Shown one piece after another: positions 2,329 through 42,597 of a stretch of 42,597 bases of DNA (the first letter of the stretch is position 1; the number at the start of each line of letters is the position of its first letter). A model generated the notes under the pieces. It worked only from the letters and a program-made list of their open reading frames with translations, searched no databases and was not told where the DNA came from. The stretch is from a virus. The stretch covers positions 1-42,597 of IMG/VR virus record IMGVR_UViG_3300047323_000683. One strand, 5' to 3'. The position numbers and the translations under genes are program-made.

Positions 2329-2850
2329 TCAGGCTGGCCAGCCCCCGTCGAGCATGGCCTCCGCGATCGACCCGTCAGCCACGGCGGCAAGAAGATCGGC
2401 CTCGCGGTCGAAGCAGGCCTGCACATACGCACGGACCGCCGACGCTACGCCGATGATCTGAGCGCCGGTCAGTTCGACAAAGCCTTCTGCGGTCTTCCAC
2501 TTGATCGTGTAATCAGCATCGAGCATCGCGGCTACGGCGGCGCCGGTGATCAGGCCCTGGCTGCGATCGTCGGTGGCAATGGCCATGCCCTGCACAACCG
2601 TACCGGCCATCTCTGCTGTGTAGCGGCGTGTAGCGATCAGCGCTGGCCAATCAGTGGCTGGCGGCTCCGGCGGTGTCGGGGCGGACGGTAATTTGACCCA
2701 CGCGCCCTGCCACTGCGCTACCTGGGTCCCGGTCAGCTTTGGCGGGGCTGCATCGGTGCGAACCCAGCCAATTGGTTGGCCATCAAGATCGCTAACCTCG
2801 CGAGAAGCGCCGGTCCAAATCTGATTAACGTCGAGTTCATAAATTTTCAT
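2329..2850 (-). CDS. Tail fibre-associated DUF4376 protein
   Basis: A 173-residue protein. The C-terminal part (about 75-173, beginning ALIATRRYTAEMAGTVVQG and including YTIKWKTAEGFVELTG) matches the DUF4376 pattern found C-terminal in fibre-assembly proteins. The N-terminal part (MKIYELDVNQIWTG ... GWVRTDAAPP) resembles the variable region of fibre caps. Its ATG overlaps the stop of the upstream fibre gene in ATGA, so the pair is coupled, which fits a chaperone or accessory of that fibre. Assignment to fibre assembly is by family and context only. Confidence 0.75.
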   Translation of the reverse strand: MKIYELDVNQIWTGASREVSDLDGQPIGWVRTDAAPPKLTGTQVAQWQGAWVKLPSAPTPPEPPATDWPALIATRRYTAEMAGTVVQGMAIATDDRSQGLITGAAVAAMLDADYTIKWKTAEGFVELTGAQIIGVASAVRAYVQACFDREADLLAAVADGSIAEAMLDGGWPA

Positions 2851-4448
2851 GTTTTTATAAACCTTTTGATGTTAGCGAAGGTGCCTGGGTTTGTAAGCGT
2901 AGGAACTTGGAAATAAAGTTTTAAATCGTAAGAGGCTGCGGCGTACAGCATAACGCCAGAGCTATTGCCTCCTGATACAGCGAGAAATCCATTTAACGAC
3001 GAAATTACAGAGGTTTTACATTGTGCGGCCGGAATAGACGCCGGGTTTGTGTTAGTTGAAAATATATCACCAACCCTCCCAACAACTGCCATATAGGGTG
3101 CTACATCAGCAGTGACAAGTAAAATATTGGCGTCCGTACTAAACGCAATCCTGCCGCGAAACGAAATACTCAGATTGCCAGCCGGTAGCTTGGTAAAAAC
3201 ATCGCCAGACCGTTTATATACTTCAACAACAGGTCCGGAATTGGGGCTAACTGCAATATAAGAAGCGTCCCCGCTTATACTCACAGATCCATAAATTAAT
3301 GCTGCGGAAGGTAAAACTGCGGGGTCGGCCAGCTTAGTAAATACATCTCCGCTACGCTTATAAATTGTGATAAAAGGAGACGACGCGCTACCGACAACTA
3401 AATAGATTCCATCCTTACTAATTGAAATAGCATAGGCTGTGCCTGAGGGCATGACAGAAGGGTCTGCTAACTTTGTAAATACATCGCCGGTACGCTTATA
3501 AATAACTGGCCCACCGGAGGTTACTACAGCCGTATAAACACCATCAGCTGTTGAGGTTACTCCAGTAGCATCGCCGCCTGGCAGCACGGCAGGGCTTGCT
3601 AGCTTGGCGAATGTATCGCCGGTACGCTTATAAATACTGACAAATGGGCTTGTAGTGTGAGCCGCTACTAAATACCCACCGTCTCCAGTAAACGACACCC
3701 CATTAACTGTTCCGGCGGGAGGAGTATCAACTGCTGCTAGCTTTGTTAAAACTCCACCCGCCTGTTTATATAGGGTTAAGTAAGGCGAGGCGTTACTACC
3801 TACAGCTACGTATGTTTCGTCAGGGCTAATATCGACTGCTTGTCCTACGCCGGGAACAGCCACTGCTGGATCGGGCTGCTTCACTCCGGGGTTGAAGGGT
3901 TTTATGGCAGGACCGATCAACGCATACAGCGCTGGATAGCTAGCCTGCAGATACAGAGACCCGTCACATTTTAGCCAGTCCGGTGCTGCCAATGCCCTGG
4001 CGCTGTCTAGGATATCGCCCGTCACGAAGGACTGAGGGATGGTTTTCCACGATACTGCGCCAACGCCATCCGTTCCCAAAAATCGATTTGGCAGCGGGGT
4101 CGGAACGGTGCTTGCCTGAGCCGCCTGCGCATATGCAAGAGACTGTGCGGCGCTGGTTGCCGCATTGCCCGCCTGCGTCGTTGCCAGGGCCACCTGTGCA
4201 GCGGCAAGGGTGACTTGCCCAGCGGCCGTCGTAGCGGATGCATCTGCAGCAGTTGCCGAGGATGCTGCCGCATTCTTGTAGCCAAGGCTGGCGGTCATGG
4301 TGTCCGCCATCCAGCTGATAGCGGTATTTACCTGAACGCCGAACGGTGGAAGTGCTGCCGTGAAAATATCAGCCTTAACCATGTAATCGTCTGGGCCATC
4401 ACCGCGAGTCGGGGCGACAGGAAGCGCGGCAATCACTGGGGTCGCCAT
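2847..4448 (-). CDS. Tail-collar fibre with inserted 7-bladed propeller
   Basis: A 533-residue receptor-binding candidate. Residues 1-50 form a conserved tail-attachment region. Residues 56-112 are an Ala/Gln/Thr-rich helical or coiled stretch. Residues 157-180 (DWLKCDGSLYLQASYPALYALIG) are the first half of a phage tail-collar domain, and its second half is residues 507-533 (DLKLYFQVPTLTNP ... IKRFIKT). Between them, residues about 185-505 hold seven repeats of 44-47 residues, most with the pattern YIAVG...PYxxIYKRSGDVFTKL, as expected of a seven-bladed beta-propeller. The DNA of this insert is clearly more AT-rich than its surroundings. AAGGAG lies 8 bases before the ATG. Confidence 0.88.
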   Translation of the reverse strand: MATPVIAALPVAPTRGDGPDDYMVKADIFTAALPPFGVQVNTAISWMADTMTASLGYKNAAASSATAADASATTAAGQVTLAAAQVALATTQAGNAATSAAQSLAYAQAAQASTVPTPLPNRFLGTDGVGAVSWKTIPQSFVTGDILDSARALAAPDWLKCDGSLYLQASYPALYALIGPAIKPFNPGVKQPDPAVAVPGVGQAVDISPDETYVAVGSNASPYLTLYKQAGGVLTKLAAVDTPPAGTVNGVSFTGDGGYLVAAHTTSPFVSIYKRTGDTFAKLASPAVLPGGDATGVTSTADGVYTAVVTSGGPVIYKRTGDVFTKLADPSVMPSGTAYAISISKDGIYLVVGSASSPFITIYKRSGDVFTKLADPAVLPSAALIYGSVSISGDASYIAVSPNSGPVVEVYKRSGDVFTKLPAGNLSISFRGRIAFSTDANILLVTADVAPYMAVVGRVGDIFSTNTNPASIPAAQCKTSVISSLNGFLAVSGGNSSGVMLYAAASYDLKLYFQVPTLTNPGTFANIKRFIKT

Positions 4449-4490
4449 AAAATAACTCCTTCAAGATTTAATATTAAAGTGCTGGAACAA

Positions 4491-5393
4491 CTACACAAAA
4501 CCTTCGACAGTGATTGTTCCCGAAGACAACTTCGGCCCGGCCAGAACTATGTTGAAGTCCTTGTAGAAACCGAAAAGAATCGTGGATTCGTAAGTTTCCT
4601 CTCCGATCCAAACTATTGGCGTGGAACGCATTTCAGCCAGCAAGCGCCGTATCTTCGCTGCTTCAGAGGTTTCCAATGCAATGTCGAACTCGGCCCGGTT
4701 TGAGTACGAGCGCGGAATAATTGTGGTGTTGCCGAAGTCATCCGTGGACTTTCGGCTGTAATCGTTGATGCCTACAGAGCTGCCATACAGCGCATCACCG
4801 AGTTTCTTCCACGCGCCGACTACGATGTGGCCCACTGCCGCCGTGCCTGATCCGGCGTCTACCGTCACCAGGACGTCAGCAGAGCCGTAGGCGGGCATGT
4901 CCAGCAGAACAAAGTCTGTGCGGACGTCGATCTCGGAAAAGAAATAGTCGTACCAGTTGGTGACGCCGCCATCGACAAGGCTGATGACTCGCCGGTACTT
5001 CTCCCCTTCCAGCGGATCCACCATGGTGACGGTTACCGTGCGCCCGGCGACATTGAACATCGCCAGCGAGTTGACCACGGCGCCAGGCCGTAGCCGAACG
5101 GTGATCGTTCCGGCGTTCGTGGTCAGCGACTCGACCTTGGTGTCGAACATCCGCCAGCGGTTATCGGCACCGATCAACTGCCACTTTGCCGGAGCCGTTG
5201 CCGTCACAACCTCTTCACCAGGCTTTACGCCGGCGGGAACCGCCGCCAGCGCTTCCCAGACGTTATGGGCCAGCAGCACCCGGGCGGCAATGGCGTAAGT
5301 GGCCGTCGCCGACCAGGCCGGGTAATCGCTTTCGGGGACGTTGCTGCTAATCAGCTTCGCCTCGGTGATCTCCACCGGTTTGATGAGCCTCAT
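4491..5393 (-). CDS. Putative minor tail protein
   Basis: A 300-residue, mostly beta protein with no signal peptide (MRLIKPVEITEAKLISSNVPES, then WSATATYAIAARV and W-rich strands). Its position fits a tail-tip component: between tape measure and fibre, its ATG overlapping the tape measure stop in ATGA. I do not recognise a defined family motif such as a distal tail, lambda J or NlpC/P60 domain. It could join the tail tube to the fibre. It is the only gene between tape measure and fibre, so the tail tip looks unusually simple, or other functions are fused into the tape measure. Confidence 0.65.
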   Translation of the reverse strand: MRLIKPVEITEAKLISSNVPESDYPAWSATATYAIAARVLLAHNVWEALAAVPAGVKPGEEVVTATAPAKWQLIGADNRWRMFDTKVESLTTNAGTITVRLRPGAVVNSLAMFNVAGRTVTVTMVDPLEGEKYRRVISLVDGGVTNWYDYFFSEIDVRTDFVLLDMPAYGSADVLVTVDAGSGTAAVGHIVVGAWKKLGDALYGSSVGINDYSRKSTDDFGNTTIIPRSYSNRAEFDIALETSEAAKIRRLLAEMRSTPIVWIGEETYESTILFGFYKDFNIVLAGPKLSSGTITVEGFV

Positions 5394-8300
5394 GCGTAAT
5401 CCCGCTCCTGTGGCATGCCTTCGTTATCGAATTTCTCCAGCAGTTGCGCGACCTTCTGGCTGTACTTGGCGATCTGAAACTGTCCGCGCTGATTCTCCGC
5501 GCGCAGTTCTCGAATCTCGGCCAACAGCGCCGCGTTGTCGTCACCACCATTGAGCATGTCGGCCGTCTGGCTGGCGTTGTAGATCCGCGACGGGCCGGTA
5601 ACTTCCAGCTCAGGGCCGTTTTCGCCGACAAGGCGCAGGCCACCCGAGTGAAAGCCGCCCGAGGCATAGCCTTTGATTTCGCCGTTCGTGACTGCATCAG
5701 CCTTGATCGCTGCGGCCAGTTCCGCAGCGGTCTTACCCGCTGCCATCCCGGCCCAGTACGAGGCATCGGAAACCGACGCATCCCGCCCCAGCACGTTGTT
5801 GTAGATGGCGTTGATATCGTTGTAGCCGACGCCCCCGCCAGAGCCGGTATAGCCAGTTGACGCGCCGGCCGCTGGGGTCGAGGGTTTAGCCGCGGCTGCC
5901 GCTGCCGCCGCAATCGCCGACTGCACTGCCGCGTTGAAAGCGTTCAGCGCCTCGGCAACGCTCACGACCGAATTGTCGATACCGTTCAGTGCGTCCAGCT
6001 GCTTCTGAGCGGCGTCTAGCTGATCGTCCAGCTTGGCCATCTGCAGGTCGAACTGATCCTTCGCGTCGGCGATTTGAGTCTGCACGCTCTTCAATAGCTG
6101 CTGCTGGGCCGTCAGCTGTATGCCGTTGATGGCGTTGAGCTGAGCGACCACGTTCGCCGTGCGGCCTTGCTCCCGGGTGAAGTCCTCGAGCGACCCGTAC
6201 ATGTCGGTGGTGTTGGTGCTGACCGACGTCAGAGCGTCGTCCAGCCCATCAAAGCCGACCAGCGAGCCGCCGCCTTGGGCAGTGGCCAGCGCATTCTGGA
6301 GCGTTGCCTTGGCTTGCTCGCGCAGCATCTTCACCGTCGTTTCAGACGTGCCGTTGAGCGACTTCAGCGCAGTTTCCAGTGCAGTGCCGGTGTTGGTCAG
6401 CCCGGTCACGCTGGCCTGCGCCGTCGACAGCATGTCGTTCAGCGATGCCACTCGCGCGTTGTACCCGGCGGTGAGCGAATTTTTCTCAGCGGTGACCGCC
6501 CGTTGCAGCGCGCTCATTGCGTTGCTTGCACCGGCGATAGCGGCGGCCTGCGCCGCAGACTGTGCTTGTTCCTGGGCTTTGTAGAACGTGTCCGCCGATC
6601 CGGCCAGGGCCATCATGGTGTTGTAGAGCGTTTCGCCGGATTTGGTTGTCCGGTCAATACCGTCGACAATTGCCCGATACCCGTCACGGTTGGCCGGCAG
6701 AGCAATGTTCGCCTTTTTGAATTCGGCGGTGATATCCGCCACGGATCGCGCGGTGTTCTCCGACTCACTGTAAAAGGCGCCGTAGTACGTTTTCTGACGA
6801 GCCTCAATGATGTCGTAGGCGGCGTCAGCAGCCTGCGAAAGCCCAATCAACGTCAGGAACAACTGACGGCCCGACTCTGTCGATTTGTCGATACCTTCGA
6901 CCATGTTCTTAAAGCCTTCGCGGCTGTCGGGCAGCACCTGGTCAACAGAAGTAAACGTATCCTTAACGTCTTGCAGGCTATCTATCGACTTTTGTGTATC
7001 GGTGAAAAACGCATCGTAGTAGGCGGCCACCGATGTTTTCAGAGCATCGATACCACCGGCCCACGCTGAAAGCTGCTCAGCCATAAAGCCGCCACTTACA
7101 GTCATGTCGTAAACGCCCACGTTGACGTGTTTCAAGACCGCATTCACGTCGTAGAGGTTTTTCACAAAGGCTTGGAGGCCGACATAGCTGAAGCCACTCA
7201 GCCCCGCGTCGGTGGCCTTGGATACCGCGACAACGACCTGGTCACCCAGCAGCGCGAACCAATGATCAACCTCGGCCTGGATTTGCTCCGAGGTTTTACC
7301 CTGGGTACTGATCTGGGACGAAGCCATGGTTAGGCCGTCGAGCACGCTGTCGTTGAGCTTGACGCCCAGTTGGGTGAATAGCGCCATTGCTCCCATGGCC
7401 GTCGCGTTGTACTGGCTACCAAGCGCATCCTGCGTGTCGTCCGGCAAATCGCTGTACAGATAACGGGTCTTCGAGCTGCCCGAAATCAGGCCGCCTTTTT
7501 TCTTCTGTTTCACGTACTGATCGGCATCGAACTCACCGCCGGTAACACCCAGCTGAATGCCAGTGTCCTTGGTCTGGTAACTACCGCCGAACAGCTTGCT
7601 GCCGACTTTGCTCCAAACAGCCTGGTAGAGGGTCGACCCGGTCAAGATGGCAGCTGCCTTGCCGCCGACGATTTTGCTCAACGCACCATCGACGATTTCG
7701 AATGCCTTGGCAGTCAAGGTCGGGATGCTCATCACGACCTTGCCCAGGCCAGTGCCGCCGGCGCTATCGTACATTTCACCAGCATCAGGACGAACGCCAG
7801 CGCTATAGAGCTTGCCCGACTGAATCATGCCCATGACCACAGCAAGCGGCCACATCGACGCGGCACTGCCCAGCGCACCTGAAGCACCGGCGGTAGCACC
7901 ACCACCTGCCGCTGCGGCGCCAGCTGTTCCCGCCTGACCAGCAACCCAAGCGGCGTAAGCCGAGCCGGTATAACCCGCCTGCATGGCCCCAATCGCCGCC
8001 GTGTTGCCTGTGATCGCGCCCACCAATGTCGCGCCAACGCTGGACAGCGTAGAGGCGGCGGTAGTCACCAAGCCGCCGTAGTAGCTTGCCACCCCACTCG
8101 CCGCACCCGAAACACCGCCAGCGGCATAACCGCTCGCCGCAGCCTGGCCTACGCCAGTGATCGCGCTGTAGGCGGAATAGAGATTCTTGACGGTGCCGAT
8201 GATGCCGCTTGTGCCCCCCGAAGACCCACCAGAAGAGCCATCCCCGAAGAGGTTACCCAGCGTATCGCTGATGCCGCCCGACTTATTCGTTCCCAACAAC

Positions 8301-37403: not shown

Positions 37404-37418
37404 TTCAACCCCCACCTT

Positions 37419-37449
37419 AACGAATCACGCCACCACCCAGGCGAGGACG
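37419..37449 (+). repeat. 31-bp leader repeat, copy 1
   Basis: A 31-bp sequence starting AACGAATCACG and ending GCGAGGACG is identical at 38539-38569. Both copies end a few bases before a start codon and contain a CGCC/GGCG hairpin followed by a GAGGA ribosome binding site. Confidence 0.9.
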
Positions 37450-37453
37450 CCCG

Positions 37454-38323
37454 ATGAACCCCTATGCCCTGAGCGGCAAGACCGTCGTGAGTTTTTCCGG
37501 CGGCCGCAGCAGCGCCTACATGCTGCGCCAAGTGCTCGACTGGAACGGCAACCACGAAGACCTGATAGTGCTGTTCGCTAATACCGGCAAAGAACATCCG
37601 GCCACCCTTGACTTTGTGCAGGACTGCGCCGAACGCTGGGGAGTGCCGATCACTTGGCTTGAATTCCGCGATGACGATGCAGGGTTTGCTGTAGTCGATT
37701 TCGCCAGCGCCAGCCGTGCGGGCGAACCATTCGAGGCGCTGATAAAGAAGCGCAGCTATCTACCGAACCCCGTCACCAGGTTCTGCACCATCGACCTGAA
37801 AATCCGGATCATCCACAAATACCTGCGCAGCATGGGCCTTTCGACCGAGGATGAGCCGGTGGGCATGATGACCGGCATTCGCGCTGATGAGCCCCGCCGG
37901 GTTGCAAAGATCCGCAACAGGGGCAGTACCAGCGAAAGTAAGCACGCCACAATGATCATGCCCTTGGCTGACGCCGGGGTCGGCGTTCAAGACGTCACTG
38001 ACTTCTGGGCGGCTCAGGCCTTTGACTTGATGCTGCCGACGATCAACGGAAGGACGCTCGAAGGCAACTGCGATTTGTGCTTCCTGAAGGGCGCTAAGCA
38101 GGTCTATTCGATCATCGCAAGTGATCAGGGGCAGCCAGAGCGCAAAGGCGATTGGTGGGCTCGACAGGAACGAAATGCCAAGTCGAGTAACGGAACAACC
38201 GGTGAAGGCGCACTGTTCCGTTTCGACCGGCCCAGCTACCAGCAGATGCTCGACTATTCAAACATTCAGATCGACATGTTTGCCGAGCACGACGAAGCCA
38301 TCGAGTGCTTTTGCGGAGATTGA
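37454..38323 (+). CDS. PAPS-reductase-like ATP-pyrophosphatase protein
   Basis: A 289-residue protein of the phosphoadenosine-phosphosulfate reductase/adenine-hydrolase superfamily. The PP-loop is SFSGGRSS (residues 13-20), then IVLFANTGKEHPATLDFV and MMTGIRADEPRRVAK. Cys111 (FCTIDLK), Cys206/Cys209 (CDLCFLKG) and Cys285/Cys287 (CFCGD) could bind an iron-sulfur cluster. Phage members occur in early operons; proposed roles include sulfur or nucleotide modification chemistry, none shown here. No dnd-type neighbours are present. It is preceded by the 31-bp leader repeat. Confidence 0.88.
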   Translation: MNPYALSGKTVVSFSGGRSSAYMLRQVLDWNGNHEDLIVLFANTGKEHPATLDFVQDCAERWGVPITWLEFRDDDAGFAVVDFASASRAGEPFEALIKKRSYLPNPVTRFCTIDLKIRIIHKYLRSMGLSTEDEPVGMMTGIRADEPRRVAKIRNRGSTSESKHATMIMPLADAGVGVQDVTDFWAAQAFDLMLPTINGRTLEGNCDLCFLKGAKQVYSIIASDQGQPERKGDWWARQERNAKSSNGTTGEGALFRFDRPSYQQMLDYSNIQIDMFAEHDEAIECFCGD

Positions 38324-38495: not shown

Positions 38496-38538
38496 CGCTT
38501 GAGGGCGGGCCAGCGATGGCCTGCCTTTCCCCTACTTC

Positions 38539-38569
38539 AACGAATCACGCCACCACCCAGGCGAGGACG
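38539..38569 (+). repeat. 31-bp leader repeat, copy 2
   Basis: Identical to 37419-37449. It ends 5 bases before the ATG at 38574 and supplies its GAGGA ribosome binding site. The exact copy suggests recent duplication or a conserved translation element. Confidence 0.9.
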
Positions 38570-41270: not shown

Positions 41271-41513
41271 ATGCCTAAAATGACTCTCGAAGAATGGGCG
41301 GCAGAGCAGTACAAGACCCCGCCCAGCGCCGCCACGCTTCGTGCCTGGATCCGGGCCGGGCGAATCTGCCCTACCCCGGTCAAACACGGCAACCGTTACT
41401 ACGTCGAGCAGAACGCCAGCTACCAGGAGCCCCAGGTGCCGGAACGAATCCCGAGGGGCAACAGCCTCATCAGCCGAATAGCGAGTGCACGCCATGGTAC
41501 CCAGGCCGCGTAA
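41271..41513 (+). CDS. xis: Excisionase
   Basis: An 80-residue excisionase-type protein: MTLEEWAAEQYKTPPSAATLRAWIRAGRICPTPVKHGNRYYVEQNASY, a winged-helix of the phage Xis family that bends att DNA and drives excision with integrase. GGAG lies 6 bases before the ATG. It overlaps the integrase start by 20 bases, as xis and int do in lambda, and is preceded by a GCCGC/GCGGC hairpin leader. Confidence 0.9.
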   Translation: MPKMTLEEWAAEQYKTPPSAATLRAWIRAGRICPTPVKHGNRYYVEQNASYQEPQVPERIPRGNSLISRIASARHGTQAA

Positions 41514-42597
41514 AGCTGGATCAAAAGACCTTCCACCCAATCTCTACCGCAAAACCGACAAGCGCAACGGCAAGACGTATTACACATACCGCGACCCGGT
41601 GAGCGGCCGTATGTTCGGCCTGGGCCAGGACAAGGACGAGGCGATCAGAGAGGCGATATCGGCAAACTATGCAGAGCAACTAAAGCCAACGCTGAGGGAG
41701 CGTCTCGCGGAGCCTGCCGCCTCGGATAATCGTAAGTTTTCCGAGTGGCTTGCGGAGTACGAGATTATCTATCGGGACAGAGGCCTGAGCGTACATACTG
41801 TTCGAACCTTTGCGAGCAGGCTCAGGACAATCAAGGATGCTTTCGGTGACAAATACATCAAAAGCATCAGGACGATGGAGATTGCCACTTACCTGGCCAC
41901 TTTCACAAAGGCCGACAAGGCGCCGATGTCCAAAGCAATGCGCTCCCTGCTTCGTGATGCCTTCACTGAAGCTATTGCCGCCGGATGGATCGACCATAAC
42001 CCGGTTGATGCAACAAAGGCAGCACGGTCGAAGGTCAAACGCGGACGCCTCAGCTTAGAGCTTTGGAAGGCCGCCCATGCTGCAACAGACAGGCCCTGGT
42101 TGAAGCGGGCCATGGAGCTTGCGGTGATCACCGGCCAGCGGCGAGACGATATCGCCTCAATGCTATTCAAGGATGTCCATGACGGATTTCTTCACGTAAT
42201 CCAGTCAAAGACAGGGGCTCGCCTGAGACTCAGCACAGATCTCAGGCTCGACTCGATTGGCCTGGACCTGTCAGGGGTGATTAAGCTCTGCCGGGACAGA
42301 GCGCTTTCAAAGAGCTTGGTGCACCACAACAAGACGGTATCCGTTGCAAAGGCTGGCAGCCCAGTCAATTTGAAGACGCTGACTCTTGCATTCGCTCAAG
42401 CCAGAGATATTGGTGCAGCAGCGCTCGGGATTGACCTGGGGGAGCATCCGCCCAGCTTCCACGAAATGCGCTCCTTGGCTGCTCGACTCCATGCAGCTGA
42501 AGGTCGGGACCCTCAGAAACTGCTGGGGCATCGCAGCGCGGCGATGACCGATATGTACAAGGATGGTCGAGGCTTAGACTGGATCGACGTCGCATGA
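41494..42597 (+). CDS. int: Integrase, lambda-type tyrosine recombinase
   Basis: A 367-residue integrase with a lambda-Int-like N-terminal arm domain (RPRKAGSKDLPPNLYRKTDKRNGKTYYTYRDPVSGRMFGLG), a core-binding domain, and the catalytic set Arg216 (ITGQRRDDIASM), Lys239 (QSKTG), His323/Arg326 (SFHEMRSL), His346 (LLGHRSAAM) and Tyr355 (DMYKD). The ATG at 41494 is chosen because it gives the lambda-like N-terminus. It is the last gene of the early operon, and its TGA is the last codon of the window. In this layout attP/attL normally follows int, so the attachment site should be immediately outside. Confidence 0.95.
   Translation: MVPRPRKAGSKDLPPNLYRKTDKRNGKTYYTYRDPVSGRMFGLGQDKDEAIREAISANYAEQLKPTLRERLAEPAASDNRKFSEWLAEYEIIYRDRGLSVHTVRTFASRLRTIKDAFGDKYIKSIRTMEIATYLATFTKADKAPMSKAMRSLLRDAFTEAIAAGWIDHNPVDATKAARSKVKRGRLSLELWKAAHAATDRPWLKRAMELAVITGQRRDDIASMLFKDVHDGFLHVIQSKTGARLRLSTDLRLDSIGLDLSGVIKLCRDRALSKSLVHHNKTVSVAKAGSPVNLKTLTLAFAQARDIGAAALGIDLGEHPPSFHEMRSLAARLHAAEGRDPQKLLGHRSAAMTDMYKDGRGLDWIDVA

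Follow-up and report, generated by a model that had tools for sequence, protein, structure and literature searches.

In the tail fibre protein gp37 of phage T4, a needle (residues 882-1009) is inserted in the collar domain (811-881 and 1010-1026) (PMC6957217). Propellers serve in host recognition in phage phi11 and have been proposed to do so in PRD1 and phiKZ; the (putative) receptor-binding proteins concerned are phi11 gp45 and PRD1 P2, both five-bladed, and the seven-bladed phiKZ gp131C with its putative function, none of which is described there as a collar insert (PMC4901313). Closely related phages are well known to swap their distal receptor-binding regions (PMC10684548). Here we describe a tail fibre gene in an IMG/VR virus record of 42,597 bases (the whole stretch of DNA analysed, termed the window) in which these traits appear to be combined. 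Like gp37 with its collar D10 and needle D11, the fibre would carry a receptor-binding module inserted in a two-part collar at its C-terminal end (PMC6957217), but in place of the iron-containing needle of T4 the insert is a predicted globular propeller with seven blades, in contrast to the five of gp45 and P2. This analogy to the gp37 layout, with a propeller replacing the needle, is supported by the sequence order and by an empty-collar paralogue in another phage. We consider it likely that the gene encodes a tip-bearing fibre in which a propeller in a split collar forms the host-binding head and the distal half is exchanged by recombination. A head inserted in a collar (T4 gp37) and a propeller as receptor-binding domain (phi11) are known already. 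Searches of open-access papers for a collar combined with a propeller or WD40 domain gave no description of such a layout, which is a weak indication of novelty.

The fibre gene is carried by a temperate tailed phage. The window contains an integrase gene (41485-42597), and its host is likely Pseudomonas-like, since a stretch of about 5 kb with head genes shares 77% DNA identity with Pseudomonas phages, e.g., VW-6S. Elsewhere in the window, a 41-base direct repeat (93% identical; 37409-37449 and 38529-38569) brackets a gene on the plus strand (37454-38323) whose product matches phage phosphoadenosine phosphosulfate reductases, an arrangement that would fit gain, or potential loss, of this gene as one unit.

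The fibre gene (2847-4448) and the other window features described in this paragraph lie on the minus strand. The 533-residue product of the fibre gene was recognized by the Pfam Collar profile and by the PHROG tail-fibre family phrog_6256 (residues 53-184, E 6.6e-8). Residues 1-60 (4269-4448) are conserved in the near relatives and presumably form the tail-attaching part. They are followed by an Ala-rich linker (residues 61-143; 4020-4268), a first collar half (145-179; 3912-4016), a seven-bladed WD40-type propeller including the strand that closes it, as delimited by structure prediction, fold matches and PDB profile matches (190-505; 2934-3881), and a C-terminal collar half (506-533; 2850-2933). 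The adjacent gene (2329-2850) encodes a DUF4376 protein (PF14301, E 3.5e-20) listed in PHROG as "tail fiber protein" (phrog_10508, E 1.2e-36), a possible fibre-assembly partner. Between the fibre and the tape-measure gene lies a conserved gene of the family phrog_6278 (4491-5393), which served as marker for lining up the fibre tips across contigs. In Vibrio phage 2.095.A (L134, 3011-4795), a phrog_6278-like domain occurs within a larger protein with the annotation WD40/YVTN repeat-like, so that a propeller may be fused also to the neighbour protein of the fibre. A tblastn search with fibre residues 1-185 against named phages gave no matches. No long repeat was found to be shared between the fibre gene and the rest of the window, and a template/variable repeat pair is hence not indicated.

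The Pfam profile PF07484 (Collar) matched residues 145-179 with 28.8 bits (cut-off 24; E 1.2e-6), confirming the collar half noted in the preliminary description, although slightly earlier than the residues 157-180 given there. Only positions 2-36 of the 57 profile positions are covered, as expected if the remaining part is displaced by an insert. The collar end, previously placed at residues 507-533, was recovered at 506-533 by a motif (YDxxxxFxVP...IK) that is conserved in the collared homologues, but not by Pfam. Given that the profile covers the first half only, the 28 C-terminal residues might be a separate tail that merely looks like a collar end, with the propeller following a shortened collar. 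This we regard as unlikely, because T4 gp37 has the same discontinuous collar and because the protein SLPG_00038 of Salicola phage CGphi29 (270 aa) holds both collar parts contiguously in one short domain. The adjacent gene encodes SLPG_00037 (562 aa), in which a propeller is present and whose C-terminal part is 53% identical to that of SLPG_00038 over 34 residues; judged from their sequences, the two proteins are a natural pair of filled and empty collars. A collar half, a propeller and a C-terminal motif (YDxxTxFxVP...YIK) follow one another in the same order in ten further distinct homologues. Based on this order, the motif and the empty paralogue, we infer that the two collar halves of a split collar pack together as one domain. 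An interrupted collar, which had been set against the short and continuous collars of many Pseudomonas phage fibres, is not odd in itself, as the collar of T4 gp37 is interrupted likewise (PMC6957217).

SLPG_00037 resembles the window fibre in the succession of N-terminus, collar half, seven-bladed propeller and collar end and in adjoining a phrog_6278-like gene. It differs in having only 26% identity overall and an empty-collar paralogue next door, and it is annotated as hypothetical protein. Among the viral fold matches, M4QPW5 (562 aa) ranked first in length and score and was equated with SLPG_00037 by protein length. The gene following the filled/empty pair, SLPG_00039 (L002, 7016-8083), encodes a protein whose end by eye resembles C-type-lectin variable proteins, so that CGphi29 may have three different tip types in a row. 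Viral contigs searched with the CGphi29 empty collar yielded no relatives. The first collar half is too variable in sequence for a degenerate-pattern scan, and among 399 genomes of the order of the host of L064 the collar profile matched in only seven. These include L128, with BNR-like repeats between two collar-like halves, and L130, with an uninterrupted collar.

The seven repeats reported between the collar halves were found again, with unit lengths of 44-49 rather than 44-47 residues: six units of 46, 46, 44, 46, 49, and 44 residues are followed by a seventh, shorter one. Self-similarity at an offset of 46 was +0.33 per residue, whereas 1000 shuffled sequences scored at most -0.19 at any offset from 30 to 59, which rules out a chance origin of the repeats. 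The structure prediction suggested in the preliminary description was performed with AlphaFold2 for residues 134-533 as a monomer with 30 homologues. In agreement with what had been proposed, the repeats close into a seven-bladed propeller in the model (mean pLDDT 90.4, pTM 0.86), in which a short strand preceding the first repeat would complete the last blade. The complete tip would be a trimer. The best structural matches of the model were WD40 propellers (5yzv, Z 35.5, 2.1 A over 285 residues), and the best match of the family profile in the PDB was 2ymu, a highly repetitive bacterial WD40 protein (E 7.6e-45). Both 2ymu and the designed WRAP propeller 7bie share the fold and the repeat motif but are not phage proteins. 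Model and fold matches thus display the hallmarks of a WD40 propeller, i.e., seven four-stranded blades and closure by a strand. With the Pfam WD40 repeat profile, the window protein scored 11 bits, below the cut-off of 27, which was reached by the homologues L012, L040, and L002. The term WD40-type, as used here for the predicted propeller, therefore refers to its fold and does not imply WD40 membership at the sequence level. Homologues have mostly seven blades or, as double proteins, 14. Most of them scored 7 or 8 repeat units, the latter because the closing half-blade can score on its own; double proteins scored 13-14 and incomplete proteins at contig ends fewer.

The insert had been described as AT-rich compared with its flanks. 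The low GC content was confirmed (0.48, GC3 0.375, for residues 183-505; 0.61, GC3 0.59, for residues 1-156; 0.58 for the window), but the low-GC stretch begins near residue 185-200 and continues to the gene end. Since it includes the second collar half (0.37 for residues 505-533), it does not by itself delimit the insert. Moreover, mid-fibre GC is 0.47-0.50 in relatives with another propeller, and low GC is therefore a trait of the fibre tips of this group and not of the WD40-type insert. AT-richness as a sign of recent insertion of this propeller was rejected for the same reason.

A comparison with relatives showed that the propeller is not tied to the rest of the fibre. L066, L067, and L068 are 81-83% identical to the window in the N-terminal 60 residues of the fibre, 92-99% in the protein encoded upstream and 61-73% in the tape-measure protein; the more distant L069 shows 44, 32, and 54%, respectively. 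A relative of the WD40-type propeller was detectable in none of these four. In L067, the upstream protein is 99% identical and the propeller unmatched, in L006 the propeller is 46% but the upstream protein only 23% identical, and in L039 the upstream protein is 75% identical and the WD40-type propeller is kept with 36% identity. Similarity of the propeller is decoupled from that of the backbone and neighbour genes. The insert is accordingly not common to all close relatives, as the near ones carry a different propeller at this place.

At the DNA level, L067 is 87% identical to the window over 4264-7889 and 97% over 1789-2338; between these two blocks, similarity is confined to a 74-base match (2677-2750). 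Similarity of L068 also ends at 4264, inside the Ala-rich linker, and that of L066 extends down to 4155 and resumes at 2756. Because similarity is lost from residue 61-98 into the next gene, the exchanged unit, as far as sequence comparison tells, begins at about residue 61-98 and comprises all of the fibre beyond, with its two collar halves; in the comparison with L067, it appears to take in most of the DUF4376 gene, too. The preliminary description, which had a propeller swapped in by recombination, was correct with respect to an exchange independent of the neighbour genes, but the propeller does not move by itself: the entire distal half is exchanged.

The fibre of L067 ends in the same frame with a different repeat protein (GDILVTAR...FPDL, then YDTTANFMTP...YIK). 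Its model (pLDDT only 67, pTM 0.64, i.e., modest in confidence) best matched Ycf48 propellers (5ojp, Z 21.7, 3.3 A over 279 residues), and the Pfam BNR profile scored 17.1, below its cut-off of 27. With modest confidence, we assign the tip of the near relatives as a Ycf48/BNR-like propeller. A tblastn search with the L067 fibre against named phages gave no matches. In other contigs, fibres downstream of the phrog_6278 marker by eye have Gly-rich, pectin-lyase-like (L106) or other ends.

According to our model, residues 1-60 would hold the fibre to the tail, with the Ala-rich linker next. The chain would enter a small collar, exit to build the predicted seven-bladed WD40-type propeller and return to complete the collar, which would act as a socket presenting the propeller at the fibre end, where it would bind a host surface molecule. 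Recombination would swap the distal fibre half on the same N-terminus, giving a Ycf48/BNR-type propeller in near relatives and other tips in more distant ones, and such tip exchange may change the host range. Recognition of a host surface molecule is the most likely function.

WD40 domains often are scaffolds for protein binding, and the propeller could accordingly have a structural part, either as a spacer or by serving another tail protein as a platform. We consider this quite improbable: in this group, no part of the fibre is exchanged more than the propeller, which also lies distally, as would be expected of a domain that faces the host (PMC10684548). It could also be an enzyme acting on a surface polymer and not a pure binding domain: seven-bladed propellers include lactonases and glycan-active enzymes, the Pfam Lactonase profile scored above its cut-off in the homologues L006, L012, and L002, and pectin-lyase-like tips were seen by eye at the same place in L106. 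In the window protein, however, this profile reached 13.9, below the cut-off of 21.7, and structurally the propeller comes closest to WD40 binding domains, so that we give an enzymatic role little credence.

A further step can be proposed tentatively, with roughly balanced expectations that incline to the negative: the split collar could be a general docking socket that is either empty or filled by a propeller of the WD40 type or the Ycf48/BNR type, and receptor choice could evolve by whole-propeller exchange on a fixed fibre. If the propeller is a host-binding head, nature would provide in these phages a series of fibres that share a backbone but differ in the propeller they bear, with filled and empty collars even in one phage, which would allow the contribution of the propeller to host recognition to be asked directly. 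The arrangement would also help to spot receptor-binding tips among phage proteins that are annotated as hypothetical.

Two to three tandem propeller genes of the same kind per contig, as well as 14-blade proteins, were observed (L016, L018, L019; L003, L010) and point to frequent duplication of the propeller module. Divergence between blades is greater in the window protein than in homologues such as L006. In three blades of the window protein (3310-3636), a stretch of 57 bases still shows 77-79% DNA identity, and some blade duplication or gene conversion may therefore be fairly recent.
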